A stretch of 64,000 nt of DNA from Nereocystis luetkeana (lineage: Eukaryota > Sar > Phaeophyceae > Laminariales > Laminariaceae), in the NCBI GenBank assembly GCA_031213475.1, contig JARUPZ010000025.1:6025676-6089675 (forward strand). The letters run 5' to 3'. Under the pieces are notes generated by a model. The model did no database searches and was not told the DNA's origin. It worked only from the letters and a program-made list of their open reading frames with translations. The translations under genes and the position numbers were made by a program. Shown here piece by piece: positions 9,223 to 62,829 of this stretch; positions within the stretch are counted from its first letter, which is position 1; each line of letters opens with the position of its first letter.

Positions 9223-11354
9223 GAAGTGGGGTGAATCGCCTCCGATAGCCTTGGGAGGTACCAGGTAGGCGGTAAATCAAGACGGCTGTTGCCGCTATCA
9301 AATAACCCCCCATCGAACGTGTTCGGGTGGTTAATTCCGCCAAGCAGGCATCGGGCCATGCCCATGATGGTACGTCCGTCCCGTTTCAAACTACCAATTT
9401 TATGTTGTGGCATGTTTTGAGATGCGTCTTGCTGCTGCATGCGAACGGTGCTTGAAATTCAATCGCCTCCATCACCAGATCGCAAAACGTTGCACCCGAA
9501 GTCCTAGAGGAACAGTCAGACCTCGAATGGACTTGCAGAGGGTGCGTACTGCAGCGTATGATTCTTCTTGTAGATGAAGTACTGTATATACCAGATGGGG
9601 TCTTGACCCTGGCGCAATGATTCACAAATGCTTCCATGTACCTGAAACCCCCCAACATATTGGGTTGTGACCTGGTCCTCGCAGGTCTGTGCTAGCCATC
9701 TTGTGGCAGGCGTTTGCTGGTGTTGTCGAAGCTCGATGTCCCGGGGGTGATTGATCCGGGGTGCTTTTGTTCTTTAGTACGTATCATGCGCCGAGATTAA
9801 ATTAGTGGAACCAACACGACTCTCCGCGTTGCGTCTCACCCGCTCCAAGACTTGTTCGTCGGGATGTCCCTGTCGCTCACATCAGATGTTTTGGTACCTC
9901 GACTGTAGCCTTGAGAAAGCCACAGTAGATACGTGAGCGGCCAGAAGGGCCTCGAGCTGAAGGCTGTCGCTGGAAGCTGTCGAGAAGGCTGTCTCTGGCA
10001 CCTGCCCCTGCCTCTTCACTGCTGTGGCAAGCTTGAGATAGTCCAGTGTAGGACAATGGTTGTAGTCGTCTTCACCAAGAGGAATCTGTGGGCCGCCCAA
10101 GTCCAAATACGAACGATGTGCGATGGCCATGTGTACCCCCTTTGGCTGCTGCTGTTGTGTTCCTGAAAAATAATCAGGCGGCGTCCAAGTCCAGGCACAA
10201 TCATGACAGGAAGCCGCACGGGGTGCTTGGATTCTCTGATGATTGTCGACGTTGGCGGCCTAGACTCCATCGCGAACACAGAAAACACCATGTTTTTCAT
10301 CGACAATATTTGCAATCGGGGGGGCTGCACAGGTGTGCGTAGTGGTCGATCACTCCTGTTCGATACCACACGTAGACGCAGGACGAAATGGCTGGAGGTG
10401 CTGCCTGCTGTCTTACTGAAAGTTGATGGGATTGTTATGTGTTGATTTTGTTGACGCGTTGCGATGAAGAAGTGACAGATGCCTTTTGGAGGCGTTGATA
10501 ACGCGCCAGCACAACAGTCATAGACGTCGAACTCGAAGTAGCCGTAGTAGTTGCGGCGGCGTTTGCCGATGAGCCAGATGGAGCTGGGTTGTACAGCAGG
10601 TTTCCTCAAGAGTGTTTGGACTATAATTAATTAATGGCGGTGGTCACGTGATAACCGTTGGCGAGATGCTACGCCGACCGCTTGGTTGACCGTGGAGATT
10701 TTAGCACCTATTATTGCTGTTTTCACGCTCTCGCTTTTAAACCGTGCATTCGCTGTCGCCGTGGACGACCCGCGTGACGCGGTCGGTGTGACCGCGTGGG
10801 CATTGGTGATGCGCAGTCAACGTCTTGGAGGCCCCCCCCAGCGCATCTCAGTCCGCCCTGCATGACGCCATGCACGCGCACAAGTCGGCGCTGGCGGTTA
10901 TGCTCCAACCCGATCGCCGCACGATTTCCAGGCGAGATGGGTTCACAACTGACATATCTCCTCGAGACAGCAAATGCCGGCGTCAGTGTGACACCGCTAT
11001 TGGTGATAACGGTGTCGCGGGAGCGAGATCTTGGACGGCGCGTAGAAGAGGTCTTGCTGTTATGCGGTATTGTGCTCCACAGGTTAGCTGGTGATGAGTT
11101 CTGAGTCGTGGGTTGCCGCCGTGCTCTATCAACGTGTCTTTCGAGTCCCCGCTCTCCGTATACACCTGACAGCTCCCGAGATGAAGAAACGGAGAAACCC
11201 GGAAGACGCTCGAGATTCGCATAGACATGGGGTCGTTTCTCGGCGCTTGCTTTGTCGACAACGGAGAGACGGAGAGGGTACCAAAGCTGAGCAGTATATT
11301 TTCGTACACATACAGAATACGCGCGAACGGCTTTATCATACATTTTCTACTTCC

Positions 11355-17110: not shown

Positions 17111-19686
17111 TCATTAACTTCTTCTTCCGAAAAATCCTCCTTTGAGCTTTGTGTTAAGGCTGGCTTCCGTCGAGGCGCACCACTCCGGCCCGAAATATAA
17201 TAAACTTCAGTATATTAATATTAAACAAAACAATTGTTTTTTTTTGGGGACAGTGGTAGGCAACGATTACTACTTACTGCTACTGTAGGTTGACTGCAAC
17301 GCCTTACAACAGTCAACTCGAAGCGCATAGACTTGACCCGTTCGCGAATCAACTCGTGGGCATCAACGGACTCACACCACACAGTTCTATTATAGTTTCC
17401 TTGACTGCCAAACTATGACCTTGCCTGCCTTCCGTTTCTTCTTGCTCAGAGCAGAAAACCCGGTACCCTGCCGCTAAAAACTCGCTTTCCCCAGGTCTCT
17501 TTGTTGTGTCCTGCCGGTCGATGGCGCCACTGTCATGTCGTAGGCCCTTCGCCAGTAGGCTCTAGGCATGCCCATTCCCGCCCCCCCCCTTTCACTTCCA
17601 GGGTGCGTGGCACATTGCAAGTCGCTACCGTCACAAGTGCTCCTTCCTGTCTCGCTCGAGCCTCGCGCGCTGCATCCTTTGCCAGCCGGCGCGTGGTCCA
17701 ACCCCTCCGCTTTTTATTTTTTATTTTTCTTGTTTGTTTTCTTTATTTTTTCGTAGTTTTCCTTCTTTCTTTCAAGATGTAGGGGCTCTCTGTGTTCTAG
17801 CCCGGCCCACGCCTTCGTTTCCAGCGGCTGGGTTCAGCCGTCTCAGCCCATCCCAACCCCCGACACTCTCATCCTCGCCGTCTAGGAAATTGCTCTACCT
17901 ACGCGGGGCCTAGCCTCTCATCATACTCTCATGTCATCAGGTGGCCTCCGTGTTCTTCGTCGGTGCGCCTTCGTCGACGCGCAGAAGAGAGCCGCACGGA
18001 TACTTTGCGCTTGCTCGCGGCCGGCCATGGTCTGTAAAGAGCCTTAGGGGTGACCCTGGCCAGCCTTGTCTGCTTGCGAGGGGTAGCAAGGCTAGCATGG
18101 CGGAGCTGCCCGATCCTTTACCTAAAAACCCTGAAAAATAAACAAGAAATACCTAAAAACTTCGAGACGACTTTTTTTGGGGGGAACTTCGAGACGACTT
18201 TTTGGGGGGTGACTTCGAGACGACTTTTTTTGGGGGGGGGGGTGAAGTTTTTCGGCTTTTAAAATTCCCGAAAACAAAATCGGGAAAATACCGAATTTCG
18301 GGAAAATATCTAAAAAACCTAAGAAGCACTCCTCGTTGAGATCGGCCTTAACACTGTTACAGAGCAGCAGTACCATATTATTAAATCTATAGAATAGTAC
18401 CTTCCTTCTCTTCAGGGTCAGTCACGGCTATGATATTATCGATACTACTACTACTGTGCTGTAATTCGACGCGCGTTGACGAGGGGAGAAAATAAATGCA
18501 AGCCACTCTTCTCACCATAAGAATGTAGCACGCCACCTTACATAGTGGGGGCGGCGGGACGAATGCCAGCAATACGGCAGTAAGTAGCGAAATATGACAC
18601 CGCCGAATCTGAGTTGCGGAAGAAAGGGAGAGAGCTGGACGAATGTATAGATGGGGTGAGTCTCGTTGAACGAAAACAATAGTGTCGGACAAAAAAATCG
18701 CTTCTCCTCCCACAGCCCGAGAAAATGTTTTATCTTCCTTTTATTATTAGTAGGCTTGCCATCCGGCAGTAGTGTGCAGCATGAGCTTTCACGTTGATTA
18801 ATCAGAACATTCCTGAAATAAGAAATTCTCCGTAAACGAAGGAAACCTGCACACCAAGTCTATCTCCCTTCTACGAGGTATGTCTACTCCTTTTATATTT
18901 GACCTACGATACTCTTTTTTCCTTCTATTCTTCTGCCACGGGACATGGGAAAAACAAAAATCAGCCCTGATTCCCTCTGACCGCTTCGACTACACTAACT
19001 ACTACGTATAATAACGCATGTGATGAGATAACACAAAAAAAACTGTCATGGTATCCCCGCCCCCCCTCTGTTTTTTTGTTGTATAGAGAGAGGCGTTGGT
19101 AGTATTCATTATATATCATGAATAGCACAACCATACGACACGTGTGCTAAATAAACTAACAACACCCACCTCCGCTTCGGACGAATGAACCCATCATGAG
19201 CCCAAAGATACAACCCGTAGCACGCGCGATCGAAGTATTATATATCACACACATAGATGATAGATCAGTTTTTGAATGCTGCAAAGATGAGTTTCAACAA
19301 AATCCCTCGACATCACCAAGAAGAAGACATCAATCACAGCTGCTTTGCTGAAAAACTTTTGAACATTTTTTTTTTTATGAATACACCGGGACCGGGACAC
19401 CGACGTGGCAACGTCTCGGCCGCAACAGAGAGAGGCAAATAAGTACCAGGGTACCTGGTAAGGTGTTATACAGTAATTTAATATGTAACATCAATAAAAT
19501 TAAATAGCAAAATTTAAATCTACCAACACATACATCCATACATACATACATGTTAAAATAACTATTAGTTATTATTACTACGTGCGGTCGACTGATGATG
19601 TATTTTCAGCGGCTCAATCAGCACCACCTACCTGCCAAACTCGAGCCGACTCTTCCTTGTTGGTGGCGAGCGGCGGAATCCTCGGA
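17111..19686. other. No gene recognised
   Basis: No coding feature is supported. The stretch becomes AT-rich, with T/A homopolymers and a short three-unit tandem repeat at 18160-18250. 18560-18660 weakly resembles the S1 SINE body. The LINE 5-prime end may extend into 17.1-17.7 kb, but no endonuclease motif was recognised there. Confidence 0.5.
18160..18250 (+). repeat. Tandem repeat, CTTCGAGACGACTTTTT-GGGG unit x3
   Basis: Three units start with ACTTCGAGACGACTTTTT and end in G runs of different length. They differ only in homopolymer length. Confidence 0.85.
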
Positions 19687-21988: not shown

Positions 21989-22036
21989 CTACCTGGTACC
22001 TGGTACCAGGTAGTACCAGGTACCAGGTACCTGGTA
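21989..22036. repeat. Array of six TA-CCWGG-TA units
   Basis: Reading left to right, six TACCTGGTA/TACCAGGTA 9-mers share their TA ends, with one extra G between the third and fourth. Each TA of one unit serves as the flank of the next, as expected if the same site was hit repeatedly. Confidence 0.9.
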
Positions 22037-23795: not shown

Positions 23796-24227
23796 TCCAC
23801 CATTTTCATGCTCGGGGTACTCTACGTATGTTGATACTTTTTTCAGACCTTAGCCGGGATGGTTCGTCGCCACCCCCCCCCCCCTTCAAAAGAAGCGGGA
23901 CGGTTGATTGCGGAAGGCGCCTACGAGTATTATTTATGACTCGTACTTGTATAACGAAACGATAGTTGCGGACATGGCTGCGGACATGTTGCATTCCACC
24001 CTCCGGTACGACAGGCTGCAGGCACTCGCTGGCACAGCAGTACACTTGATGCATACCAGCAGGAACTCGTACCTGGTCACTTACTGCTGTAGCGTTGCCT
24101 GTGAATTTTGATACCAGGTACCAGGTATGTATATATGCTTTTTTTTTTTTTTTTGTGGCCTGTTCCCCAAGTTCACACCTCGCACAGACAGATCGTGATC
24201 TACAGAGTAAATAACGTACAGATAATC

Positions 24228-24355
24228 TATAACGGGGGTCCATAGTAAATACCTGGTAGGACCTTCAGTGCACACCAAAACCTATATATTTACATATTTT
24301 TACTATTGATAACAACATTTTGTTCTGCTTACTTTCTCTGGCCCCCCATAATAGC
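24228..24355. mobile_element. MITE family M2, copy 1 (carries a TACCTGGTA scar)
   Basis: The left end CTATAACGGGGGTCCATAGT and right end GGCCCCCCATAATAG are inverted. Where the copy at 30660 reads GTAAATAGGACC, this one reads GTAAATACCTGGTAGGACC, a clean 7-bp addition at TA. Confidence 0.8.
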
Positions 24356-25216: not shown

Positions 25217-26108
25217 TGAATGCCGGTGATTGCCCTGATTTGCCATGATGTTGGGGTGGTTCGGTTGGGGGTGGGGCTCACCTGGTGAACGCGCCGACCT
25301 TTTAGGCTTCCCTTGTGCCTGGCGTTTGCCGGATGTACCTGAGAATTTGCCCAAAAAGCGCTCGAATGGTCACATTTTTTACGCGAAGTGATGAAATCGT
25401 CCTCGTGTGTACTGTGATGTATCATTCATCTCCCAAAAACAGCAGTAGCACGCGACAGCAGGTATTAATCTACCTTTTTTGGCTAAGGCTCGCGGCATAT
25501 TGTGATGTCAGCGTTGAGCATATAGACTTCTTGAATACTATCATGCCAGTAGGGTTTGGAGTGGCCTTCCGCGCTGAGCGGAAACGGTTGGAGGTAAGTT
25601 AGTATTCTTCAGAAGTTATCGGGCTGAAATGCCGACGTCCTACGTGAGTTGTTGGCACTTGTCGCGTACTACACTGTATGGTAGGACAAGACAAGGTGTT
25701 GCTTCTGCTGTAGTACGGCGTTTAAGTTTTTGATTACATGCAGCGCTGTCCAAAAATATGAGGGCATGCAACTCTGCCCCCAAAATATTATTAATTGGGC
25801 GTGCGCCTCTTTCCCAAGAATATGAGGACGGTTTTGATTGAATATTAAATAGTGTAAAAATGTTCCTTGCATCTTGGGGCAGAGTGGTGCACGAGTACAT
25901 GTATTGTTTTTTATTATTTTTTTTTGTTTCGTAGACCTACTTCTCTTGTATTTTTTTTCTTAAACCAGATTTATGCTTTGTACAGTACCTGGTAGTATGT
26001 ACGGAAATCGCAACAGCAATAAGAATGGTATTCACGAGCCGAAACATCTTTCGCATGATGCAAACCGCTTCCGTGGTTCGATTTCAAATACGTTGACACC
26101 CCGTCGAG

Positions 26109-29408: not shown

Positions 29409-29524
29409 TTATTACGGGGGACCATAGACAATAGGACCTATCGTATACTTAAAAAACTATACCGGTATATTTAACCATTTTTAGTAACAATATTTGGTCC
29501 TATTAACTATGGTCCCCCGTAGTA
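29409..29524. mobile_element. MITE family M2, copy 3
   Basis: Left TATTACGGGGGACCATAG and right CTATGGTCCCCCGTAGTA form a nearly perfect inverted repeat. Interior TATACCGGTA replaces TATATA of other copies: a 4-base variant of the TA-CCWGG-TA scar. Confidence 0.9.
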
Positions 29525-32339: not shown

Positions 32340-32454
32340 CTATTACGGGGGAACATAAATAATAGGACCTGTGGTATACATAAAAGCCTACCAGGTATAT
32401 ATTTAACCCTTTCTACTAACCATATATTTGGTCCTATTAACTATGGTTCCCCGG
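32340..32454. mobile_element. MITE family M2, copy 5 (carries a TACCAGGTA scar)
   Basis: TATTACGGGGGAACATAA on the left, CTATGGTTCCCCGG on the right. The interior reads CCTACCAGGTATATATTTAACC where other copies read CCTATATATTTA: the same 7-bp type of addition at a different TA. Confidence 0.88.
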
Positions 32455-33864: not shown

Positions 33865-33998
33865 CTATCGCGGGGGGTCATATTGAATACCAGGTAGGAC
33901 CTGCGATACACACGAGCACCTACAGTATATACTTATTAATAGCTGTTTTGGCCTACAATATTAGGTCCTATTTACTACGAGTATGTCCCCCCGAAATA
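33865..33998. mobile_element. MITE family M2, copy 6 (carries TACCAGGTA and TACAGTA)
   Basis: Left CTATCGCGGGGGGTCATA, right GTATGTCCCCCCGAAATA. GAATACCAGGTAGGACC replaces GAATAGGACC, and CCTACAGTATATAC replaces CCTATATA. Two different TA-flanked additions are present in one copy. Confidence 0.8.
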
Positions 33999-40100: not shown

Positions 40101-43100
40101 GAGCGGAAAGCGCAAGAATGTGAGTTAGCTACATTCGATGAAAATCGACGAGCACTGGGAATGCTGAACCCTATGCGCGATAAAAATTAAAGGCCCGTAC
40201 CGGGGGGGAGAAGGGGCTACACTTGTGACCACGGCTTGTCCAGAAGATCGCTGAGGGCAAAACCTCCCACGAGTTAGGCTGGAAAGGAAAAGTGGTGATA
40301 AACATATAAAAAATGTTGGGTGAGGATAAGTCAGTCGTTTTTTGTCGGAGGCGCCAACGTGCAAACCAAGTATCTGTCCGCAGCTCGGGCAGGGCATGAT
40401 GTATTCATACAGACAGGAGGCCATCGTGTCACAACTCGTGATCTATCTACTGCAGCTCTTACAGAGAAGATGTATTCTTGATCTGTGTGATCTGTGTGAT
40501 CTGTATGATTCATCTCACGTTGGCGCGTGGGAGCGGTATGATCTACTGTAGGGCAGGTTTCCCGGGTTGGACCCGTAGTACGGTACTCTATGATACATAT
40601 CCTGCAAAGACACCTGATAATACACGTAACGGTAGGTTAAGATCTGGAGTATCTATCTGTGGGTGATCTATCTGTACGTGATCTACCTGTAGATGACCTA
40701 TCGGTAGATGATATGTCTGTAGATGATCCATCTGTCGGTGATATTTCCGTAGATCACCTATCAATAGATGACATGTCTGGAGGATGTTTCCGTAGATGAT
40801 CCATCTGTAGATGATCTGTCCGTGGATCATGCTTCCGTAGACGTCTATCTGTAGATGATCTGTCCGACGGAGGGCTATAGGAATCAGGACCCATCATATA
40901 CACAAAACCTGCCGTATATTTAAGCATATTTTATCCTGACTACTATGAATATGCCCGTAATAGTGGGTTTCCTTTCCTGTAGGAAGGCTTGTTTTACTGA
41001 TGGATACACACGTTATGTACGTTTGGCACAGCAGGGTTTGAATCAGGACAGGCCGTGCGCGGCTTACACATGCAAAAAGCCTCTACGCAGCGCCGCTTGT
41101 TTTAGGTCCGCCAGTACAAAATTACCCCATGAATATATATCTGTATAAAACTTAGGGGGACGCTCGTCATATTTTTTGGACCAACCAAACCTCTTGCGGG
41201 GAGGGAATCGACGGGATAAAATATGACGGTGGCGGCCAAGTGAGCACTGCTTGTGATAATGTGGGAGATTGTACAAATCGGTGTCGGTATTTCAGTATGA
41301 TCAAGGTTTCGAAAGTTGACGTCATGGTAACGTCTCAAGGGTCTCTCAGGTTGAGACTTTGCACTCTGGTCGGAAAAATAACGCTCGTTTTGATTTAAAA
41401 TCATATAAATACCTGGTATGTTGACTATATTCCCGGTCAGCCCCGATTGAGTTGGTTGGGCTTCTCGGCTAGTTGCTTGCTTCGCCAGCCAACTATCTTA
41501 TATAGTAGTCCAGTCCGCTGGCGTTTTTTTGTTTTTGTTTTAGTTTGCATACAAGAAATACCAAAGACCAAAACGCCAATGGGTTCTTCGGTCGCTGCCA
41601 TCGGCACCGGCACCTTCGATAGGGTCTCTCTCTAAACCCACACAGTCGAGTGTAGCTGTAATACCTTAATACCTATGTATCGGAATATTTACGAGGTGTT
41701 GATCTTTAGTCATCCCAACTCACAGCGCCAGGGTACGAACGGACATTACGCGGTCGGTTTCGGTCGGGGGTTTTCACGCAAAAAAACAAAACCGAAACCG
41801 GAAAAACAAAAATGAAAACCGAGAAAAAACGAGTATGTCGGGGTCGGTTTCGGTCGTCTTTTCGAAAAATAAAAAAATAAAAAAAAGGGCTGGAAAAAAA
41901 TGAATGAAACCGACCGAGAAAAACGACTTTCGGTTCAACGAATACGGCCATGCATGATATCGAGTACGCCCCCCCCGCCCCCGCCTCTTGTTTACGCCCC
42001 GTCTCCGCACGTTTTTTTGTTTGTCTTGGATGTTTTGCGCCGTCTGCGCAGACCTTGGTTTCCTGGACACACCAGAGATGGGTGTGGCACACCCAAACAG
42101 CGATGAACGCATCTTCGCACGTCGTCTTCTACGAAGAGCTTCAGGTAGGTAGCTGGGGAGGGCTGTGACTTGGCTGATCTCTAGCCGCCGATTATTCATG
42201 AGCTGGCTAATTTTTTACTGCGGCTAGTATTTTACGGAGGCCCATATTGAATAGGCCCGAAGCCAGGCCAGAGCCCCGGTTTTGGTGCGTGTATAATCGA
42301 GAGCTACTACGTCAATCGAAGAGGTTGTCTGTGTAAAACATGCGGTCGGTGGTAGTCGTCCCACCGATGCTACACTTGTATTCTCTATAGACCCCCTTGG
42401 CAAGCCTCTCTCTTCTTTCCGTTTTTGGTCGTGTATATTATAGAGGCCACCGTGATACTGTAGGTGGAATTTTGCGGGTTGTTGCGCGCGGATGAAGTTG
42501 CTGAGTTTCTGCGTACACGGACGGACACATGTCACTTTGGCCGAGTTTCCGCGTACACGGATAGATGCCGCTTGGCCGAGTTGTCCTAAGTTGCCCGCCG
42601 GCTACTAGCGACGGGTTAAGTTGACACACCACACGCAGGTAGGTAGAGGCGTTGGGCTTGCAGGCCTGCGGTCCCGGTTTAGAGACAGTCTGGAGCGGTT
42701 TGTGGACTACAGTGCTGAAATGGTCAAAGCTTTAAGCCTATCCAAGCGGTTTGTTAACTACATACAGTCCTGATTTGGTCCAGCTTTAAGCCTAACCAAT
42801 CCGCCGGAAGGTGGAAATACTATAGAGAATGAAAAGTGTATCGTGTCATTTATTAGTTGACCAGTAAGTCGGAACCGTACGTATTTTTGTGTCTGACTGG
42901 CGGCTTTTGTTTTTTCATGGTTCATGCTGCTGCGAGTCGGTTAGTTGGCTTTACATTGCCACCCCAAAAAAATACAATTTTTTCAATCTGCTTAGCCCCC
43001 ACAGTAATTGTCAGCTGGCTTGCCTGGCCGCCCAACTTACTGCTTGCCTCACTTGCTTTGGTGCGAGACTACCACCTTGTTGGCTTGCTTCGCCGACCAA

Positions 43101-47519: not shown

Positions 47520-49330
47520 ATCAAGCTCAGCTTCTTGAGGGGTTCTTTATGGTACGCATTATCAGAAGGTTGTTACGGCAGTGTGTGTCATGCGACATCT
47601 GGGTGTGTTTGTTCTTCGCCGTCCCGAACTTCACTCACGTGTGGAGGCTTTTTTTTTCTGGTCGCTTGGGGGCCGGGGGGGGGGGGGGGGGGGGGGGGGG
47701 GGAGAGAAGAATGTGCAAGTTGTAGTGTTCCACACCCCCTGGGTGGCCTGTCCGAGTTACCTCGGACGTTATCATACCTGTGTCTTCTTCGCGTATATGT
47801 ATACCCGATGTTTGACCGTCGGGTGTTACTCGTATCGTAGGATGTTTTTGCGCCGCAGAGCGCGCGGGTTGTGTGGCACCAGGTACGCTCGTTCAGTGTT
47901 GATGCATGCGGGGCTCGCGCACATTGGTGGGGAGGTACGTAGGCCTGAGAGATCAACCGCGAGCGGCATGAAGGAAGGCTTTGGGGCACGGCGTACGCGG
48001 CTTTTTTGCAGGCTATATCCGCCCTGTCGGTGGTGATATATTGTACCAGGTACACGCTAGCGTTGCGGTGCACTGCTGTGGTGAAGAGGCACATTGGAAG
48101 GAGGCAGGGATTGGCATGACAAGCAGTTCGTTTCCGTGTAACCCTCGGGCGGTATTCCTAGATCTGAGATTCGAACGCCGGAAATCAGGGGTTTGCGAGA
48201 GAGACGGGATTGAATTTATACCGTGTATGGACGGCGTTATCATGAAGTGTATATCGAAGTGTTTTCTTCCACAGAAATACATAGGATTTTTACCTCGAGC
48301 AATGCATCTGTCGTTGTAAAATACTTCGATGACTTCTTTCAAAAGCTCCTACCAGGTACCATTTTCGTGGTGTGTTGTACCCTCCTTGATTTGCAGAAAA
48401 TTGGCTTGGAACTCCCACCCTAGGTTTATCTGGTCTTGCATGTTACAACATGGAACGCGCCCGAATCACACTATCTTTTTGTGTTGCTCTTTGGTGGGGG
48501 GGGGGGAAGTCGAAGGAGACGGGAGGCGGCGTGAAAGCAGTACCACTAGTTGTTGCGTCACGGAGAACGCGGTTTGTATCTTTCGCTCGATACGTGCTCA
48601 CACATACCTGGTAAACATTGATAGCTTTGGGCACATTGCCGACGAGGTCTGTCTGTCGGAAGGGAGCAGGAAGCGGCATGAAGTCAGTCGATGGCGTCAC
48701 GGAACACGTGGCGCCTGTGTACTACGCTCGGTCGGTGTTGAGGTACTCGATATCCTTGCGACCGTTTTCGAGGAAGATTTTGGAGCTGTCGGAAAGCGGC
48801 GCGTACTCGGTACATGGATAGGCGATCCAACATATTTCTAGCTTTTTTTTCTTGCCGCGTCGATTTTGCCCCCTGTTTTCGTCCGTTCTCACGTCACACT
48901 GCCTGTTGTAATCGCCGTCTCATCGAGCGACTCGCGGCTGATTGGCCAACGCACGGCATCTGGGGAGGGCAAGAGTCTGGAGAAGCTCCGCCCGGTAGGT
49001 GTCTTGTAGAGGTCCGCAGGGAACACGTAACTGCACAGCGTCACTGCGGTCACGACGGCAGCGCTATCTTGGCTTAGGCACTCCGTGGATCCTTGCCTAC
49101 CATCGCTTCTGCCGTGAGTGGGCGTGGGTAAAATCTAAAGGGTTTCTCATTGTTTTTCTGGACAGGGGATGATTGTCTCGTGAGCGGAATTTCTACTTTG
49201 CGTACGAAGAGTTGCGTTTTCGATAGGGAGCCTACTGTTTATTCGGCGGTTCCCCTCAAGAAGCGTTAGTGGTTGGTTTTGTGGCGTAGCTGGAGGCCGT
49301 GTGCTTTCTTGGTAGATGGCAGCGTTGTGC
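47520..49330. other. No gene recognised
   Basis: Two stretches, 47880-48000 and 48600-48740, look like diverged copies of each other (CATTGGTGGGGAGGT / CATTGCCGACGAGGT, then GCGGCATGAAG). Open frames to 170 codons lack domains. Scars are at 48042, 48350 and 48605. Confidence 0.5.
47676..47701 (+). repeat. Poly-G tract
   Basis: About 25 consecutive G after GCCGG. Confidence 0.95.
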
Positions 49331-49520: not shown

Positions 49521-50514
49521 TCCGGGGCCCGGGACACAGTAGTACATCCGGATCCATCGCCCATCGATCTTTTCGGCGCAATCCGTTAGGGCCGTTTTGT
49601 TTTTTTTCGGTATCCAGACATTCATCAGGTACCAGGTATGTTTTTATATCGTCCATGTCAATTTACTAAGAAAGACGGTGCACGCACCCACCCACCGTTC
49701 TCACCGGCCAACCATCTCACCGGCCAACCATCGCATTGGTTGGTTCTCTTCGTGTTGCGGGCTCTCGACGAGAGGGCACGGCAAAAATGTATCCAGCTGC
49801 CTACTGCTGCACCCACGGGGGTCTGCGTCGATTTTTCCTCTGCGGCTTTCGTAGTGGTGCGGTTGTGGATGCCGGACACCTCAGACAAGACAGATCATCG
49901 ATCCCTGCTTTTTTAATGACCTACCTGGTAGATCATAGGGGAGATACATTTCCCGACCTGTGCGATCTGCGGCTGTAGCCCGTGCTCCCCGGTGGGAGCT
50001 GAACTTTCCGAAAAGCCCTCCCGTAAAGGACGTCCATAGTGTCTGGATTGGGTACTTACTATTATACGAATATTCGGACCTTGTACAGCACCTTACAACG
50101 TAAGATTGGGATAAGAGATGAGTGGCCTTTTTAGTAGATAGTGTTTTTTTTTTCGACCGAGTGGAATGCTTTTACGTAGCGGGAACGGGATTCGTGCCCA
50201 GCCGGTTTTGATCGCTGGCGCATACCGGCACTCGTACAGAGGGACCCTTCATTGCTGTACCCCTATTCCACTCGCGTCAAAGCCTTGTCCATAGTTCCCC
50301 TCTGACAATGATCGATTTCGAAGAAAATACCGTACGCGCCGCTAGACGTACAGTCGCACCCAATGGCCAGGTGAGCACACCCCCCGCCCCCAAAACGTTC
50401 AGAATCCAAATGGATGGGACTGCAAGAGCATCCATGATTGGGCGCTTCTTCAGGTGCTGAGGAACCCACGCCAGGCAGATCGTGTTGGGGCCCAACCACA
50501 CCCCTTCCACCGCA

Positions 50515-51597: not shown

Positions 51598-51719
51598 TAT
51601 TACGGACGACCATAGTTAATAGGACCAGATATTGTCAGTATAAAAGGTTAAATATATACGACGTACCTGGTAGGTTTTCAAGTATACCATAGGTCCTTTA
51701 AACTATGGTCCCCCGTAAG
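51598..51719. mobile_element. MITE family M2, copy 8 (carries TACGACGTACCTGGTA)
   Basis: TATTACGGACGACCATAG / CTATGGTCCCCCGTAA. ATATATACGACGTACCTGGT-AGG replaces ATATATAGG: two consecutive TA-flanked 5-base additions, CGACG and CCTGG. Confidence 0.88.
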
Positions 51720-52113
51720 AGTAGAAAAAATGTACCAGGTATAATATTAGTATTTGCGAAGATAGTAATCAGGCCGCAATCTGCTCAGTGATTACAATGG
51801 AGCATACAGGTTTTAGTGTGTATCATGGGTATTGATTTTACTATCGCCTCCTATAATGATCGATATAGCTCCCTTGAACAAGCTCCACCGCCGGTCAGAA
51901 AAATACTAAGCCCAAAAGCACAGTCAGTCGTCAGTCCCTATACTCAGTTCGATTTCCTACTGTTGGCAAGGAGCCAACCTTCTGCGTAGTATAGACGCCC
52001 TTTGAAACGCCGAGCATCACGCGAGGGAACGCTCCGATTTCGCGCCATGTTCCGTGCCCGTTTCTTGACGAGCGCGTTTTTGCTCACACACCCCAAGAGG
52101 TTTGAGATGGCCT

Positions 52114-52258: not shown

Positions 52259-52482
52259 TTCGGGGTACCATAGTAAATACCTGGTAGGACTTAACTACTG
52301 TTATTACGGGGGGCCATAGTTAACAGGACCAAATATTGTTAGTAAAAATGGTCAAACATATAGGTTTTTATGTATACCATCTGTCCTGTTAACTATGGTC
52401 CCCCGTAATAGTAAAAATAGGTAAATATATAGGTTTTCGTGTGCGCACCCTAGGTCGTATTTACTGTGGTCCTCCGTAATAC
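52259..52482. mobile_element. MITE family M2, copy 9 interrupted by another M2 copy
   Basis: The outer copy begins CGGGGTACCATAGTAAATAC with scar TACCTGGTA, stops at about 52300 and resumes at 52413 (TAAAAATAGGTAAATATATA) to GTGGTCCTCCGTAATAC. Between the halves lies a complete M2 copy, showing at least two rounds of family activity. Confidence 0.85.
52301..52412. mobile_element. MITE family M2, inner nested copy
   Basis: TATTACGGGGGGCCATAGTT / AACTATGGTCCCCCGTAATA with the standard interior. No scar inside. Confidence 0.92.
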
Positions 52483-54085: not shown

Positions 54086-57000
54086 CTGCGGCGAGGGACA
54101 TCGGCATAAAAACAGCAAAGGTCCACCTCAAGTTAGAGATCTACACAGCAACCACGGATTCGATTTTTTGCGAGGAAGGTGAACGTGAGGCCAAAGTGTT
54201 CAACAACCTTTGTTTGTGCCTTGTTTTTTCCCCCACCTTCTTGTCTTGGTTTCTTCGGGCAATGCCACCTTCGAGGGGTGGTGCCCTACCGGAAGCTGTT
54301 GACACCATGAACCCTATTATGTCACCCGAAACAGGACTTCGAAGAGCGTTTGTTCGCGTTAAAGCCGACCAAGGTGTCTACGCGCCGGTCCTAGAGCACA
54401 TGCACTCTACAAAACGATTATCCTACTAACCGGAACACTAATAGTTTCTCACTGGAGGAGCTGTTCCGGTCAGAACATATTTTGCCTCAGAAGGCAAAAG
54501 TGTAGAGACCCCTACCGCGGGTCGAGTCTTTTCCCTCGTATTTAATTCTTTCGGGTAATATTGTGTACGAGAAAATCAACGCTGAAATCCACGATGCACA
54601 TTGCCAGGCGGCGAACGCTATAACGACGAAACCAACGACAACCTCAGCGATCCATCTCCTCGCGTCAATGGGGCGACCGTCTGGGTGAGGGGAGGGGGGG
54701 GGGGCGACAACCATGCGAAACACTAACTCTTGACGCGTGTTATCACAGCATTAATAGTGGTGTTTCATCTATATAGTTCCGGTCGAGTCGTCCCGCCTTC
54801 CCGCTATCAACAGTCCCTGTGAAATCGCTCGGCAGAGACGGTATTATCCAGAGAGGCAGTGCACGGAGTAGTGTCGTTCGCCTACAAAGTGGCAAGGGTG
54901 TTGTTGGCTTTTGCCCATACCGACACTGTAAAAGGACCGCTACTCTGTAAGCGTACGGCACCCAATGATCAAACAACGTTCTGACAGACGGGGGTTGTTT
55001 TTCTGAGGCAATACCCAATACCGTGGTCATTCGAGCTGCAGTCCCAGGCGGCGGGAGGATCGGTCATCGTTCTAAGCATGCACATTTTCTCCGACTTCCC
55101 CCCATCACACTATACGTGACTGTGAATTTCCCGGAAACGTCCCGAAAATATCCCACCGAATGAAGTGTGAATACTACTGTTCTTCTCAAAGTCGGCGTTT
55201 GTGCGGGCTATAAGAGCTCCTCAAGCGACAGTCCCCCCCCCCCCCCTAAGAACCCCTCCACAGAAAGCCAGAAAATCTAGGTGCACTTCTAGCACACCCT
55301 AGCATGCGTTTCTCCGGAAAAAATAGGGGGTGGTGGACACGCCCCATTGAGCTGCAGTTGGAGACAGCTTCAAAGACTATCTTTCGGCCGCGGTGCAGAA
55401 ATCTTGTTTATCTGGATACACCCCCTACCGGGGGTTGTTGCGTGCCAGGAGAAAATGCAACTCGTTCTCCCCTGCAAACAACGCCTACCTGGTAACTAAC
55501 AACTTCTAGGGATCTGATGATTGTAAATAGACGGTCGTTGTGAGAAGGAAATAAGCGCAATGCCATCTGCTGTGTGTTATAACGCCCCCCACTGAAATTG
55601 ATCACTAGAGCTCGGAAATCGAGGCTCATAACCAGAAAACAGTGCTGCGTGTCGAGTACCGAGGCTATGCACTTCTCTGCACGGAGACAGAGCGTCCACA
55701 AGCACGATAATTTAATTCATTCTCGCAGGGAATATGGGTATATACAAGCGTACTCGAACAAAAACAAAAGCGTTTTTGCCAAAATCAGATATACCTGGCC
55801 ACTTTTCGGCCACAATCAGGTACAAGCTAAAAATAAGTACAAACCACACCCCAGGAGCCCTGCTATTGGCCAGGCTGACATTGTAACTGATTTTGGCTCG
55901 AAAAGACCAAGGGATACCTGTTTAGTTCTACTCTGTCTAGCTTTCAACTGATTTTGGCCAACTTTGAACCAATCAGACAGACCACACGCACACTCTGTTG
56001 TTTCTCTCCGTATGCGTCTGCCCTCCCTCGGTTGAAATTGTTCTCTATTAACGTCTAAACTCTGTACTCGTACGTTATACCTGGTACGTGTATTACATAT
56101 GCATGCATGCGTACGTTGGATTCACTTTGTTTCTTCATTGGGGTGTGCGACGTGCTTCAGATATTTAATAGTTGTTGTGATGTGTCCTCCTGTCCCGCTG
56201 TGTGTTGTTTTCTACGTGGTATGTATGGTCACAGCGGTTTATACATGGTCGTTGTCCGCACTCTGCACCACCCCGCGTCGAGGTGATCTCAGGTTTCGTA
56301 CGGCAAGGTAATTTCGTGCCGAGCAGCCGGTTCGGCGAGGACGGTCTAAAAGAATTAGAGATGCCAACGTGGGGCGGCGGCAGAGTAAACACTCTTGTTG
56401 GCGCCCACGCCGTGGCAAAACAAACCACAAGAAGCCTATTAATAGTGACTCTCTGCAGGTCCAAGTGAAGCCCTTGGTATTTACTCTTTGAAGTAAACTA
56501 AACGATTTAGATTTTGGAGGCCATGTGGCACGCTTCATTTTTTACCCGACTTTCATGGACAGAACACCGCTCGTGGCGCGCGTTTTTCACTTGGTTTTAA
56601 TATGTACCTGAGTTTGGCTCAAACGGAACAGGTATAACTGATTCTGGCATTTGCCCACAACAAAAATAGGACACGCCGCTATATCTTTGTGGCCCTCGAC
56701 AGGGGGCGGGGGTGGGTACACTAACCTCAAGTAAACATGCACAAAACAAACGTGTTTTGTTTAATTTGTGTCAAGTTCTCTCATATTTTGGGGTTTCATT
56801 GTACATTGGCCGTTCTGACTCGAGAAAGAGTGCGTTCTCGGGTAAGTTTCGTGTCATTATACACACTGCAAACCGAAGCTCCAGACCTTTATCCATGCAT
56901 TTTATAGTTTGCGCCCGTCGCCGGCGGGGGTGGCCAAGTCGCACAGCTAAGGCGTGTTCGGGGGAGGGGGGGGGGGGGAAGAGACACGGCACCAACCTGA

Positions 57001-60000
57001 ATATCTTCGTACAAGACAACGTGCGATGACGCTTTCATCACCGTGTCCGTGTGCCACACCCACCGCTGGTGTGTCCAAGAAACCAGGGCCTGGTCAGCGC
57101 GGGGCAGTAGATGTGTCAGAACAGGAAGCATGAACGGGCATGACCGCAAAAGGGACGGGCATGGTTTACGCTCATATGCCGTTGATCGGGGGCGTGGGCG
57201 GGACGACAGAAGTCGTACATACGCGGCACCACATATTACGCAGCACCACATATTCTGGGCCTTCGCACTCAAAGGAGACCTCCACTTACGTACTTCTCAC
57301 TCGACACCACCGATTTTAGGCGAAAACTTGCAGGCTACAAAACCCTCCGACGAACAACCCCGTATAGCCTAGGTGCTAACGAAACACAGTTTTGACAGGA
57401 ACACAAACGGCATAAGGCACATGCCTCACAAGGCACAGGCATGAGCTCAACCGGTCAGGAGCATACAGCAGTGCCTCAGAATGCAACAAAAAAGCGCAAT
57501 CCCTCCCGCCGTGGGATGAAGGAGTCCAGGAAAAGGACCCACCTCGAAGCGTTGCCTTACGAAAGCGTCCGCGGCAAGGTCTTTCACCCAGTCTTCTTTA
57601 TAGTACTCGATGCGCATTTTCCTCTCCGACATTATCACGTTTCTCGGATCTCGCACAATCACGACCGTCCTGGGATCGGAAGCACGCACGCACGAAGCCG
57701 AAACCAAGAGGAAGCAAAAGGCGAGACGTCGCGCGGACGCACGTCTGCGATGGCGGGGGTAGCAGCACCTACTCGTCCCGAGGCTCCTAACACGAGGTGG
57801 TCTTACATCTTCACCGAAAAAAGCGTGCATCGATAGAGGTATGCACGCACGTAACAACGTATTTTGACAGAAAACGTCTGGCCGACCGGGCTCCCCACAT
57901 ATAACAATCTATATATATATGTTGTTGTTGTTGTTGTTCTCACATTAACTCTCTGACGAAGGAGTCCGTGGTCACACAAAGGTGCTGGAGCCCTAGGAAA
58001 ATCCGAAAAACAAAAAAATCGAAAATTCGGCTGCCTCAAAATACACGAGACGGAAAAAGCGCACACAAGATAAAACCAATGTGCAAAACTGAACTAACAT
58101 GGCCGCGGGTATATCCTCTCAACTATAATATAGATAGAAGAGTACCCCCGTTCCCACCACTAACCAACTCGTGGCTGCTGACTACAGCGGATGCTGTCTG
58201 AAGTGCTGCCTGCACCGTACGAAACGCACGGTAGTCGTGAAAACGAAAGAGGAACACACCTGCCTGCTATCTGGAGTGCTGTCAGAGTGAAGACTCGCGG
58301 ATATGCAGTGAAAAAAGGAGCAATCGAACCTTACTGCCACACGAATATCAACTATCGCCATATATATATATACCTGGTATATGTATTATATATAACACTT
58401 TTAGAACCGGAGTCCCGTTTGGGGAACATGCTACTTCAACTTTGAGTGGATTTGACCCAAAAGGGGACTGCGGTCCTAAATGGGTTGGCCCAACATCGTC
58501 GTGGAATGCTTCAGTAGCATCAATAGTGGCAAACGATGACACTCGTGAGACAGCTCGTAGCCTTTGAGACTATTCACCGGGTTGCACTTTTAGCTTTCCT
58601 CAGATGAGGGCATGGGGGTGATTGCTTTAGGAGTGGCTTGCTTACAGTATGAAGCTCCTCAAGTGGTGAGCCTTAGAAGGCAAATACAAGTAAAGCAGGT
58701 GCTATCCCTCCCGTAGGAGGTCTTACTGAAAAAACGGGCATCATGGAACACTGAACGCTCAGCCCTGTGAACGATCTCACGACCTCGCCTACATGACGAA
58801 AAATATGGTCAGTGGGGCACCCCTTCTAACACCATAGCATAACAAGCCCACAAAAGGGTTCCTATCTCGAATGTAGTCTCCATCAGTCTTACCACCGGAA
58901 ACATGACATCAACATACAATTTACTATTTTCTCGTGGCAAAGGTTGATTAGCCACCCTTCTTTCCACTACGGACTTGACCCTTTTAGGACTGCAGTCCCA
59001 TGTTTGGGGGCAAACCACTCAAACTCTAAGTGCTTCGCCCCCAAAACGGGACTGTCGTCCTAAAGGGGTTGAATCGGATGGCCTTAAAAGGGTACACCAC
59101 AAACGATGAAATTCCGTCGGTCGACGAAAAAAAAATGCTCGCGGGTCCTGCCCTTCCCTGGCCGTAAAGGACGCGCCTCACCTTCTGACCGCCGGGTCTA
59201 CGCTAGTCATGTGCTGAAGGCAGGCCGCCGATGTATTCCACAGGCAATCGACCAGTCGCTGGCGTGTGGGGGTTTCCCCTGACTTGCACGGTAGGCGTTC
59301 TTCGAACCAGTTCATGTGCATGATTCCCCCGTTATGGCAGCCGTCGTACTCCTTTCGTACGTCCATGCCGGGGATGAGGTGCTTTTCGCCCCCCTGTCAA
59401 CAAGAAGCGCGAAAACAAACAGATCGGAAGAAAATACACACAACACAACGGGGCACACGTGCGTCGGACAGACGATCGATTCCTGTATTTGATCGACCCA
59501 GATCCTCCAAGCTTGATATACTCCTGGGCCGTATGATATGCAGGTAGCTCATACAAAACAGGTGCATATGTATGCCCTCAAATATCGAAATCCCCCCACC
59601 GGGCACCATAAGCTCTACGAAGCTCATGCGCATTAGGAACGTATATTTCCCGAAAATATCTGTGTATCGGTGGTCTGCGCGACATATGAGTTGAAATGTT
59701 CTCGAGGATCGATATTTTTCCTGCGGCAGAAAAGCTCATGCTGAAGGTGGCAGCAAACTTTCTCAGAATTTAAGTGGTCTGGCCCCTCGACGGGCTGCAG
59801 CTTTTTCCCCAAACGAGCAAAAGGAGAACGGCCCGTCAGAATGACGTTTTCGGCCTTATCCCGACAGATTTCCCCGGCTTTGATGGCGATCTCGGGCGCA
59901 TCCCGACTTCAAGGCGTTTGCTAGCCTTAAATCGGAGTATATTAGTCAAACAGCAGTAGCGATGAGGCAGGTTCAACTGCCTTGTCCCACGCTTGCCCCA

Positions 60001-62829
60001 TTGCGGGGTAACTAACCACCGTAACACCGGTGTATGTGCTTTCCTCCGGCAATGTTCCGCGTGCGTCAATCGGAAGAATTAAAAATGAAAACCGAACAAA
60101 AGTGACGACCAATCAGGAATTGAAAACCCATAAATTGTTGCACACCCTCGAAAAGACAGATAATCGGTTCCTGCATCATGATCTATGGGTCTTTTATAAG
60201 GCACATCCGTCCGCGGTCTTGCAAGAAAATATCCAGCGCGTTACCGGGCGAGACCAGTACAAACTATTATCCCGCGCGTTTCCTGGATTGGATCTGCAAC
60301 TACAGTACATACTCAGGTCCCTCACAACCTCCTACGACGGCAGGTTGATGACCTACCAGGTATTAGGTATTATTATACGACCTACCGCTGTAGATAGATC
60401 ATAAGCTGTCTGAGTTGCGCGAGAGGGTGCAAGTCAAAAGCCGTCGGTATTTTCTTTTTCGTACGGCACTGCTGCACAGAAACTTAATCTGACTCTATTA
60501 CGGGGGGCCGTAGTAGATAGGACCAAATATTGTGAGTAAAAATACGGAAACGTATAGGTTTTCATCGTTACCATAGGTCCTATTTACTATGGTCCGCCCT
60601 AGTAATATCAAGTTCTTTTGTCAAAACAACGGGAGTGCATGCATGCATGCAGGCCGAAAAACGTACCAGGTAGGCGTTACATATACTAACCCGTTTGAGG
60701 GCTTCAGTGCGGAAACAATTGATGCCAACAACGAGAAAAAAAAAACGTACCCCCTACTGCTCATGCTTTATTCAACAAGCGTCCTTTTTGCTCTTTTGCT
60801 GTATCTCACGTTAATCCCTTCAACCCCTTTAGGACCGCAGCCCCGTTTTTGGGGACAAACCAAAATTCTAAGTAGTTTGTCCCCAAAACGGGACTGCGGT
60901 ACTAAGGGGGTTAATACTGCAATTCCGCTTTGGGGACGAATCACTCGAACTCTCAGTAGTTTGACCAGAAAACGGGACGGCGGCCTTGAGATGGTCAAGC
61001 GGGGCTTACCATAAAGTGCAAAAACAGGGTCGAGTTGTCGCTGCCATCCGCGCTCTTGGTGATCATCTCGAACTCGTACTTCGGCGCTGGGTAGTTGGGA
61101 ATCACGTTAAGTCCTCCCATCCCACACCTGTCGGTTCAAGCGAAACTTGAGACTTAGAATAGAAAATAAGAGGACGTACGTCGTAGTCGGAACAAGGGGG
61201 CGAGGGACAGCAAGCAGAGAGCACAGAGCTCGAGTCGCAAGTTCGCACAGAGCTAGAACTTCCTGCATGGTACGTACGAGGGCACTTTTTTCTGTCCCAC
61301 AGGTTTTCTTCTTTGGGAGTGCTTGCGAGCGATCAATGTCTGTCATCAGGTCACGTTATCAGACAGAAATAACAGCCAACAACAATCATGTACCAGCACA
61401 TGGTTAGGCACCCTGGAAGGTGGTGGGCAACAGACCTATCGATGCAATTTTTTCCTCCGACAATACTTCGTACGTACTATGCAATGTTCTACGCGGCTGA
61501 CAGATCCACAATTCGCACCTCATGATCTGCAGCAGATATTTCAGAGCAGATACCTGCATGATCTAGTTCATATTGCCGAGTGGGAGCCGAGCTGTATGAT
61601 CTGCATGATCTGCGTGATCTACAGCAGTAGCACACCTTTCCTGCGTTGAATCTGCACTACACCAGCCACGAGGTTACCAGGGTACATGTCCTGCGCAACG
61701 GGTCATAGCGGCAGGGTAGTAGCCACTGTAGCATCTAGATGGTCCATGTACCTACAAGTAGATCGTGATTTGTGCGGGGTGTGCAACGCTACACATATAT
61801 GTACAAAGCGAACCTCCTCACATGCAATTCTCGGGGGAAAATTTGGGGATAATTTGATATCAGAAAGAATGGGCGATTATACAAGGATATTTCGGTATCA
61901 ACAACAATAATGCAAAAACAGTATTTCTATACTTCCGCCCAGGTACTCAGTAATGTACCAGGTTTGCAAGCAGTAGTGCTCCTTTCTAGCACCCTTCAAA
62001 GCCAACCGTGCCCCGCTTTTCCCCCCATAAATTAAGGGCCCGCCTTTTTTTCACTTCCTCCCCGTTTCGTATTCATGCCGATTAACCCCTTTCGAGCTGC
62101 AGTCCCGTTTTGGGGACAAACCAGTCTAACTCCAAGTAGTTTGCACCCAAGACGGGACTGCAGTGCTAAACGGGTCAATAGTACTTCAGTACCAGTTCGT
62201 TAGGTATATAGATGATAGTGGTAAAAAAGCGCCCCCTTGCAAAAGAAGGGTAATCTATATCCCATGTACCGCACCTGGTAATTTTTTGCCATTATTGTTT
62301 CTAGTTTATTCGCCAAGCGGCAATGTTTTTACTGCTTGATCCAATCACACCATCCACATATACACATATTAAGGGGATTCAAGGATCCGATGACTTCGGA
62401 CATACTCGGGGAGAAATTACGTACCTGGTACACGTTTTCGCACTGCTGTGTGGAACTGTATGTATGCTCAGAAATCTGCATGACACACGCCTCCCACACT
62501 GATCGGATCGCGCCCAGACCCCGACAGCGTGTCCGGGCGATCACCCCCCCCCCCCCCCCACCTTATAAAAACTTCTAGTTTTTTTCTCAAACGACGCGCG
62601 CACGAAGAGACACCATCGAAAACAGACGAAACATGGACAGAATACAACTGCCGTACATGCCCTATGCCCCGAAAACTGCGCAGCACATGCTGTACGCACC
62701 ATTGATTATTCCAGCTGCCACACAGCTCGAGCGATAAGTGCGGAAGGATTCGACCGATCCACGTCGTCCCTGACTTAGGCTCTCCCTTAGCGTCCAACGA
62801 TATCCCGTGTCCAGGTACCCGCCAGTCCT
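53861..62829 (-). CDS. Sulfotransferase gene B (six recognised exons; N-terminus outside window)
   Basis: Paralogue of gene A on the opposite strand with the same intron positions and phases. Minus-strand exons 62829-62700 (130 nt), 61127-61010 (118), 59393-59182 (212), 57669-57543 (127), 57089-56997 (93) and 54085-53861 (225) join to 905 nt, about 301 residues, without stop or frameshift. PKSGTTW is encoded at 62759-62779, VRDPRNVIMSERKM in exon 4, and the protein ends DPTDL-TAA. All introns are GT-AG. The role should be PAPS-dependent sulfation as for A; residues outside the PAPS site differ enough that acceptors may differ. The first exon starts with two bases of a split codon, so at least one further 5-prime exon (membrane anchor expected) lies beyond 62.83 kb; none was seen before the window edge. 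Confidence 0.9.
54086..56996. other. Intron 5 of gene B: no other gene recognised
   Basis: 2.9 kb with scars near 55490 and 56080, a C tract at about 55234-55248, a G tract at 54695-54705 and a CTATTAATAG palindrome at about 56436. ATTTTGGCC-type sequence recurs at 55780-55970. No supported coding feature. Confidence 0.55.
56997..57089 (-). CDS. Gene B exon 5
   Basis: 93 nt; acceptor GACCAG, donor GTTGGT, phase 0 at both ends. Encodes ALVSWTHQRWVWHTDTVMKA and SSHVVLYEDIQ. Confidence 0.92.
57543..57669 (-). CDS. Gene B exon 4 (3-prime phosphate-binding motif)
   Basis: 127 nt; acceptor TCCCAG, donor GTGGGT. Encodes TVVIVRDPRNVIMSERKMRI then EYYKEDWVKDL and FVRQRFE. Confidence 0.92.
57918..57938 (+). 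repeat. (GTT)n microsatellite
   Basis: Seven GTT units next to TATATATATATG; intron 3 of gene B. Confidence 0.9.
58395..58486. mobile_element. Palindromic MITE family M1, copy 6
   Basis: CTTTTAGAACCGGAGTCCCG / GGGGACTGCGGTCCTAAATGGG. Intron 3 of gene B. Confidence 0.88.
58976..59072. mobile_element. Palindromic MITE family M1, copy 7 (TTGA on both sides)
   Basis: TTGA-CCCTTTTAGGACTGCAG / CTGTCGTCCTAAAGGGG-TTGA. A clean 4-bp duplication, 110 bp from gene B exon 3. Confidence 0.92.
59182..59393 (-). CDS. Gene B exon 3
   Basis: 212 nt; acceptor TTGACAG, donor GTGAGG. Encodes GGEKHLIPGMDVRKEYDGCH, NGGIMHMNWFEERL, TPTRQRLVDCLWNTSAACLQ and DPAVR. The end phase (2) matches exon 4. Confidence 0.9.
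60030..60404 (+). CDS. Unassigned open frame in intron 2 of gene B
   Basis: 124 codons with balanced composition for the last 90 residues (TTNQELKTHKLLHTLEK, DNRFLHHDLWVFYKAHPSAV, RDQYKLLSRAFPGLDLQLQY). Unlike most frames here it is not low-complexity and no equal frame opposes it. No family recognised. It lies antisense to gene B and ends in a TACCAGGTA scar, which supplies its last codons. It could be a remnant of a gene or transposon. Confidence 0.22.
   Translation: MYVLSSGNVPRASIGRIKNENRTKVTTNQELKTHKLLHTLEKTDNRFLHHDLWVFYKAHPSAVLQENIQRVTGRDQYKLLSRAFPGLDLQLQYILRSLTTSYDGRLMTYQVLGIIIRPTAVDRS
60496..60605. mobile_element. MITE family M2, copy 10
   Basis: CTATTACGGGGGGCCGTAGT / CTATGGTCCGCCCTAGTA with the standard interior and no scar. 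Intron 2 of gene B. Confidence 0.9.
60822..60914. mobile_element. Palindromic MITE family M1, copy 8
   Basis: TCAA-CCCCTTTAGGACCGCAG / CTGCGGTACTAAGGGGG-TTAA. Immediately followed by another copy. Confidence 0.92.
60912..60998. mobile_element. Palindromic MITE family M1, copy 9 (diverged, tandem to copy 8)
   Basis: Arms ACTGCAATTCCGCTTTGGGG and AAAACGGGACGGCGGCCTTG. It shares its left TTAA with the right flank of copy 8, and ends 12 bp before gene B exon 2. Confidence 0.8.
61010..61127 (-). CDS. Gene B exon 2
   Basis: 118 nt; acceptor GACAG, donor GTAAGC. Encodes CGMGGLNVIPNYPAPKYEFE, then MITKSADGSDNSTLFLHFM. Lies 12 bp from an M1 MITE pair in the downstream intron. Confidence 0.9.
61590..61625 (+). 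repeat. TGATCTGCATGATCTG run
   Basis: Three GTATGATCTGCATGATC-type units, as at 27915 and 40478. Confidence 0.8.
62082..62177. mobile_element. Palindromic MITE family M1, copy 10
   Basis: TTAA-CCCCTTTCGAGCTGCAG / CTGCAGTGCTAAACGGG-TCAA. Intron 1 of gene B. Confidence 0.92.
62700..62829 (-). CDS. Gene B exon with PAPS-binding loop
   Basis: 130 nt; acceptor TGCCAG, donor GTGCGT. Encodes DWRVPGHGISLDAKGEP, KSGTTWIGRILPHLSLELCG and SWNNQ. One codon longer than the gene A exon. The acceptor is inferred from phase match with gene A. Confidence 0.85.

Follow-up and report, generated by a model that had tools for sequence, protein, structure and literature searches.

The 64-kb window analysed here, one stretch of a contig of the brown alga Nereocystis luetkeana, holds 34 exact copies of the 9-mer TACCWGGTA. 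These 9-mers, referred to below as scars, are probably footprints left where a cut-and-paste DNA transposon with a TA target duplication excised; the donor and the enzyme are predictions of this reading. Seventeen copies read TACCAGGTA and seventeen TACCTGGTA, which are mutual reverse complements and therefore give equal totals of A and T on one strand. Joining copies that share a TA leaves 28 groups. The first-pass annotation of the window had put the number at about 34 and listed 14 start positions, all correct to within two bases. Over 100 dinucleotide-preserving shuffles, the mean was 0.33 copies and the maximum 3. In the whole assembly (465,085,209 bases, 1,987 contigs), TACCWGGTA occurs at 182,395 places, counted as places and not events, with copies in duplicated repeats and near-duplicate contigs included; this is about 105-fold above a reversed-letter control pattern (1,744 places). 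The genome-wide count, which the annotation had proposed as a check, is far from random, and together with the window shuffles it rules out a chance origin. Within a pool of 177,659 bases, the central letter of TACC-N-GGTA is A or T at 93 sites and C or G at 3 on one strand. This pool is random in part only: stretches of the contig C1 were chosen for holding sites and loci L001-L004 for holding pairs, the blindly placed part being L035-L044 (50 kb, 15 sites). Scars stand about once per 2.5 kb, and by an estimate via the pool's TA density they occupy some 0.7% of all TA dinucleotides (15 of 2,781 in the blind part).

The 9-mers are 7-bp gains at a TA. To see empty sites, each site was reduced to its two flanks with one TA between them, and this construct was compared with the pool. 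Under strict scoring, a plain-TA relative exists for 5 of 93 scar sites and, among 665 other words of the form TA-N5-TA, for 3 (Fisher p 0.001), with 3/645, 21/825 and 1/714 in further controls; looser settings also return empty relatives for the scars at window positions 24250, 34849 and 35047. A two-unit array at C1:38770 is missing from a copy with 98% identity over 162 bases, and the closeness of this pair suggests that activity lasted until recently. TACCWGG accounts for 10 of the 20 entries of 7 bp, at 7 distinct sites, that were listed by an indel survey blind to the motif; the survey also returned decayed forms, unrelated 7-bp entries and a few 6-bp TA gains (TACCGG, TACTCG). Empty relatives and indel survey thus bear out the 7-bp gain that had been proposed. 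These gains combine a short insertion, relative to the empty site, with a TA on both sides, as in an excision footprint, and the TA duplication is that of Tc1/mariner elements. Among the sequence pairs cited earlier from MITE copies, GTAAATAGGACC (30678), GTAAATACCTGGTAGGAC (24245 and 52273, the latter running on into GGACT, not GGACC), GAATACCAGGTAGGACC (33885) and CCTACCAGGTATATA (32387) are present; the short form CCTATATA was not located as such in a relative, the empty relative of the 32.39-kb site at ~52.4 kb reading CCTATATG. The converse history raised by the annotation, in which the 9-mer is ancestral and the short forms are deletions, was rejected: most copies of the repeat family described below are empty, and gains recur on their tree.

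These comparisons also bear on the idea that the word is a functional or compositional motif, such as a protein-binding site, a restriction-type word or a product of mutation bias. The word is exact and palindromic-like, and CCWGG is a bacterial methylase and restriction site; the clean 7-bp gains at TA contradict a motif, however, the sites are scattered in repeats, and one-mismatch forms are in modest excess (128 on both strands of the pool versus 73 expected, beside 186 exact copies), leaving this idea scarcely credible. Mean scar divergence is roughly 3.5%, a crude value that assumes one neutral population. Table 1 lists the sites in the window.

Table 1. Putative scars ('scar'; 'minor scar' for the 6-base form) and associated features, in window coordinates
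Feature	Position	Strand	Remark
Scar TACCAGGTA	9259..9267	.	exact 9-mer
Minor scar TACCAGGGTA overlapping scar TACCTGGTA	19444..19460	.	minor scar 19444-19453; scar 19452-19460
Three-scar array	21990..22012	.	TA in common; letters T,T,A
Three-scar array	22014..22036	.	TA in common; letters A,A,T
Two-scar array	24112..24127	.	letters A,A
Scar TACCTGGTA	24250..24258	.	inside MITE-like repeat; single TA in relatives at ~30.7 and ~60.6 kb
Scar TACCTGGTA	25986..25994	.	exact 9-mer
Shorter relative TACCGGTA	29460..29467	.	6-bp gain versus related copies
Scar TACCAGGTA	32389..32397	.	empty related copy at ~52.3-52.4 kb
Scar TACCAGGTA	33888..33896	.	inside MITE-like repeat
Interspersed repeat, partial	34700..35075	+	hot TA sites 34849 and 35047
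Scar TACCTGGTA	34849..34857	.	hot site 1 (aacacTAcgtgat)
Scar TACCAGGTA	35047..35055	.	hot site 2 (caacctaTAtaaaat)
Scar TACCAGGTA	35644..35652	.	exact 9-mer
Two-scar array, then partial third	38016..38031	.	letters A,T
Minor scar TACCCTGGTA	38105..38114	.	reverse complement of TACCAGGGTA
Scar TACCTGGTA	41410..41418	.	exact 9-mer
Scar TACCAGGTA	48044..48052	.	exact 9-mer
Scar TACCAGGTA	48350..48358	.	exact 9-mer
Scar TACCTGGTA	48605..48613	.	exact 9-mer
Scar TACCAGGTA	49630..49638	.	exact 9-mer
Scar TACCTGGTA	49922..49930	.	exact 9-mer
TACGACGTA then scar TACCTGGTA	51657..51672	.	14-bp gain versus related repeat copies
Scar TACCAGGTA	51733..51741	.	exact 9-mer
Scar TACCTGGTA	52278..52286	.	inside MITE-like repeat
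Scar TACCTGGTA	55486..55494	.	exact 9-mer
Scar TACCTGGTA	56078..56086	.	exact 9-mer
Scar TACCTGGTA	58371..58379	.	exact 9-mer
Scar TACCAGGTA	60354..60362	.	exact 9-mer
Scar TACCAGGTA	60664..60672	.	exact 9-mer
Minor scar TACCAGGGTA	61675..61684	.	
Scar TACCTGGTA	62422..62430	.	exact 9-mer

The sequence around the scars shows a palindromic target preference. Across 164 flanks from 82 groups, in a count that is symmetric by construction, base preference is confined to the seven positions beside each TA: T or A at -7 (chi-square p 3e-20), A at -6, few C at -3, a pyrimidine at -2 and few T at -1. Of thirteen positions beyond -7, only -13 (p 0.008) and -19 (p 0.046) fall below 0.05. Of the 82 sites, 13 have a TA exactly 7 bp off on both sides (background 1.4%) and 31 on one side (background 12.8%). 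Such a preference, running from -7 to -1 on both sides, is of the transposase type and favours selection of the sites by an enzyme. Because its own TAs stand 7 bp apart, the scar fits this preference itself; in a target model, a TA inside a scar is 8.9 times as attractive as the average TA. The model, trained on the same 82 groups it was applied to, predicts 7.0 array joins versus 11 observed, 2 of them in loci fetched for pairs, and target preference accounts for most of the arrays. Neighbouring array units carry the same letter 6 times and different letters 5 times; copying of units is therefore not needed for arrays, and 7-bp slippage was rejected as their source. The annotation had seen in the arrays a reuse of newly made TA sites. 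Reuse stands, and the arrays call for little more than target preference.

Repeated gain at one site is seen directly in the interspersed repeat at 34.70-35.08 kb. This family has 8,350 first-look candidate copies; the 40 that were aligned and scored are the top matches to a query in which both scars are present. Two TAs of the family vary between filled and empty from copy to copy. With 5 near-duplicates dropped before tree scoring, 33 distinct copies are scorable at site 1 and 13 of them are filled; the tree shows 7 changes between filled and empty there (9 with A and T as separate states). At site 2, 8 of 34 copies are filled, and the changes number 6 (7 with letters apart); 'filled' here takes in three variant forms (TACTTGGTA in L054 and 6-base forms in L057), and the pattern could not score two site 1 rows and one site 2 row, site 2 of L063 looking empty by eye. 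In the L057 copy, the 6-base variant occupies the two hot sites alike (TACCAGGGTA and TACCCTGGTA). With labels shuffled, the mean number of changes is 10.6 at site 1 (11.2 with letters apart) and 7.4 at site 2 (7.7), and two-state shuffles have changes as few as observed in 4/200 cases at site 1 and 26/200 at site 2. Inheritance is therefore visible to some degree at site 1 and hardly at site 2. Parsimony is blind to gain versus loss; most copies, however, are empty. As side observations on this family (34700-35075), G-runs end many of its copies, and a small contig, C1191, matches 1,100 window bases at 100%.

The same repeat also fixes a reading direction. The exact filled form of site 1 is present at 92 places genome-wide (at least two pairs of near-duplicate contigs among them), 44 with A and 48 with T, and both letters thus arise at one oriented site. 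Resolution of a mismatch in either direction would give such a split, as would an insert that lands in random orientation. The earlier reading of the A and T forms as mismatch repair is accordingly compatible with the 44:48 split, the equal overall totals being no evidence in themselves. In three near-identical contig pairs (window/L046, L052/L053 and L070/L072), all 5 scar letters agree; the scars therefore look heritable, not somatic, and random somatic excision is contradicted.

A minor class with a 6-base core is one-sided. In the pool, TACCAGGGTA is found at 4 sites versus 0.4 expected and TACCTGGGTA at none; genome-wide, TACCWGGGTA, which comprises both words, has 13,000 places versus 771 for its control. 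Among 100 matches listed, all lying within the initial 5.9 Mb of C1, A:T is 93:7, with TACCAGGGTA making up the 93, and the bias holds (p 2e-18) after one tandem array (8 of the 93) is counted once. That array, at G000:C1:1304145-1308353, has TACCAGGGTA at 8 places, mostly in 528-bp steps, and amplifies a minor scar. Slippage of G in finished scars was rejected as the source of TACCAGGGTA, as it would give A equal to T. The one-sided class therefore points to an element whose ends start with 5'-CCAGGG and are cut 5, occasionally 6, bases inside. The annotation had proposed ends of CCAGG or CCTGG; the minor class refines these to 5'-CCAGGG, although the searched parts of the assembly yielded no such element.

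In the proposed mechanism, the element would carry inverted ends beginning 5'-CCAGGG and duplicate its TA target, with TACCAGGG ... CCCTGGTA as predicted donor. Its transposase would cut one strand at the tip and the other 5 (sometimes 6) bases inside, and each donor-site flank would keep ...TACCAGG as a 3' overhang. The overhangs would pair C-G, C-G, A.A, G-C, G-C and be ligated, and resolution of the central mismatch to A or T would produce TACCWGGTA; the Sleeping Beauty footprint, TACWGTA, likewise reflects a mismatch resolved two ways. A 6-base cut would leave CCAGGG, pairing C-G, C-G, A.G, G.A, G-C, G-C, and this self-pairing could resolve only to CCAGGG/CCCTGG, which is one word on opposite strands (TACCAGGGTA or its reverse complement). 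The single assumption of ends 5'-CCAGGG would thus account for the core with its A/T centre, for the duplicated TA and for the lopsided letters of the minor class. The donor and its enzyme are inferred, as are any end sequence past CCAGGG, the polarity of the overhang and the route of repair; the overhang geometry is modelled on Sleeping Beauty and mariner.

The minor class also helps to weigh excision against direct micro-insertion, in which a transposase acting on pre-cut ends, or ligation, would add CCAGG and a TA duplication without a chromosomal donor. Such a process would suit the uniform 5-base insert and the lack of a donor in the searched parts, and random orientation would also yield A:T of 1:1 at one oriented site. 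It would, however, demand a second oriented species, CCAGGG, for the one-sided 6-base class, which excision yields for free. We know of no enzyme that adds CCAGG and TA in this way, and we regard direct insertion as unlikely.

Searches for the donor covered parts of the assembly. The annotation had called for TA-duplicating transposons with CCAGG or CCTGG termini, and none was found in these parts; because no intact donor or transposase with CCAGGG ends came to light there either, we infer excision rather than observe it. The Tc1/mariner profiles PF13358 and PF01359 have 0 matches in the assembly; these negatives are weak, since PF01359 had no match in any of 14 control genomes either, and such elements are to be expected in a brown alga. 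A pogo-type profile (PF03184) has 28 matches, and none of the 8 loci read has CCAGGG ends. A half-site search at hot site 1 (non-T after CCWGG) gave 22 places versus 17 for the control; the 20 read include no donor, and 4 of them are the repeat family with odd scars. A search for a donor within a scar (TACCWGGTACCAGGG + non-T) gave 197 places, and no donor was accepted among 40 read of the 100 listed. A paired-end pattern gave 24 places, none of them with the fill-in join TACCAGGGCCCTGGTA, which counts against excision; its control pattern, which resembles a window repeat word, gave 208.

Three of these 40 loci, L123, L130 and L160, are alike to the right of an array (84% over 134 bp; 72-73% over 170-178 bp). 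Read over 7 kb each, they prove to be divergent members of a single purine-rich repeat with the array inside. Their left flanks share a short likeness (TCGGCG or similar before the array), and at one locus the repeat occurs twice, the further copy having an array of its own and a shared left flank. No CCCTGGTA end lies within 7 kb at these loci. On the partly shared left flank and this lack of an end, we judged the array to be inherited, not an element tip, and rejected the shared repeat as donor. A diverged purine-rich repeat at L174 101-1662, L175 (-) 102-694 and L176 (-) 87-420 and 3358-3790 has TACCAGGTACCAGG near one edge in 4/4 copies; the lone long ORF of L174 (623 aa) looks like a Copia-type polyprotein. 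In the 177,659-bp pool, there is no convincing TA-flanked inverted-repeat element with CCWGG tips of the MITE kind, the best candidate being a palindrome within a longer inverted repeat. An inverted repeat at 55.79 kb was rejected as donor, as the inverted repeat of a related copy extends past the TA. The repeat at window 55760-55930 has CCTGGCCACTTTTCGGCC adjoining a TA and a related inverted-repeat copy in the C1 stretch starting at 82028; its palindrome CAGGTATACCTGG mimics a scar. In viral contigs, 9 stretches have one place each, which we put down to chance. On a rough reading, chromosomal copies with CCAGGG ends would number fewer than a few hundred, an unmeasured bound.

An ordinary Tc1/mariner-type footprint could arise from a 3-base CCA overhang joined at its last base and filled in (TACCA + TGGTA, one-base overlap). 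It would yield the CCWGG form, and Mos1-like ends begin with CCA; but a single mismatched base makes a poor join, the one-sided CCAGGG class is unpredicted, and the Tc1/mariner profiles, weak as these negatives are, have no match. Such a 3-base origin is very unlikely. To our knowledge, characterised Tc1/mariner footprints have 2-3 bases; the scars, with a 5-base core and a 6-base minor class, lie outside that range, a point against the excision reading proposed above.

That scars far outnumber detectable donors in the parts read would also fit excision of a donor that does not persist, whether extrachromosomal, viral or a family all but eliminated in an organised way, as with the IESs of ciliates. 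Yet the scars look heritable, contig pairs sharing both states and letters, and gather substitutions (~3.5%), and an ordinary donor, now rare or extinct, explains the same facts; a non-persisting donor is therefore improbable. IES excision leaves a single TA and no extra bases, unlike the scars, which keep extra bases and appear heritable. Paramecium IESs resemble them in being TA-bounded, with precise removal of tens of thousands of elements (PMC3077386).

Other TA-bounded words are over-represented in the pool: TACTCGTA/TACGAGTA (34 versus 7.6 expected; for example at window 23435, 33857, 37354 and 37404), TACTGCTGTA (22 versus 1.1) and TACWGTA (67 versus 29), which are possibly scars of other elements. 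In the empty-site test against the pool, TACTCGTA has an empty relative in 2/34 cases and TACCGGTA in 2/7, and TACWGTA (0/67), TACTGCTGTA (0/22) and TACCAGGGTA (0/4) have none, with controls at 0.1-2.5%. Elsewhere, a 910-aa ORF at L035:1-2730 (-) joins NADAR and reverse transcriptase domains and resembles NADAR-carrying Gypsy elements known in Ectocarpus (PMC12477816). Rfam has 0 matches on the window, and Pfam matched two of 10 sampled ORFs. The light-harvesting family has 68 matches in the genome; one such protein scores 398.4 bits against PDB chain 9ygv_17 (FCP17), the next being 6ly5_T (FCPI-12; 218.5), presumably from a diatom structure. TTAGGG-type repeats begin 6 of 8 contigs read.

In Sleeping Beauty and mariner, cuts 3 bases inside leave 3-base 3' overhangs at the donor flanks, which become the footprint (PMC7827188). 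The scars share with Sleeping Beauty and other Tc1/mariner elements the TA duplication and, on the excision reading, a footprint derived from a donor-site 3' overhang (PMC7827188); they differ in the core of 5, rarely 6, bases, the 7-bp target reach, the ~182,000 places and the lack of a donor in the searched parts. Stowaway MITEs and plant mariner elements likewise leave a small duplication and a short end sequence (PMC4561436), but here one uniform scar is present in huge number, without accompanying MITEs in the pool. Ectocarpus has 17 Mariner-Tc1 families with 11,912 copies, mostly non-autonomous, and such brown-algal families are a plausible source group; the words 'excision' and 'footprint' do not appear in the main text of that report (PMC12477816). 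We found no report of these scars in the literature searched, a set without preprints and most subscription papers.

Footprints are a known kind of event; what is new is that the core has 5 bases, that target preference reaches seven bases, that the scars are so many and that no donor was found. A still bolder history, in which a TA-targeting element with a 5-base stagger landed and was removed ~100,000 times or more in one lineage and was then cleared nearly completely, through organised elimination or an extrachromosomal donor, leaving heritable scars throughout the genome and hardly any donor, strikes us as doubtful. No 5-base stagger is known to us from TA-targeting transposases, and if true it would be, as far as we know, a new cleavage geometry. 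Excision footprints are usually studied singly; here one kind is found in very large number, which would be a fossil record of a transposon in which target preference, cleavage stagger and the first end bases may be read from scars without the element. The scars also provide a set of orthologous yes/no markers, and if they arose by excision, transposon exit would have supplied this genome with many small heritable indels.
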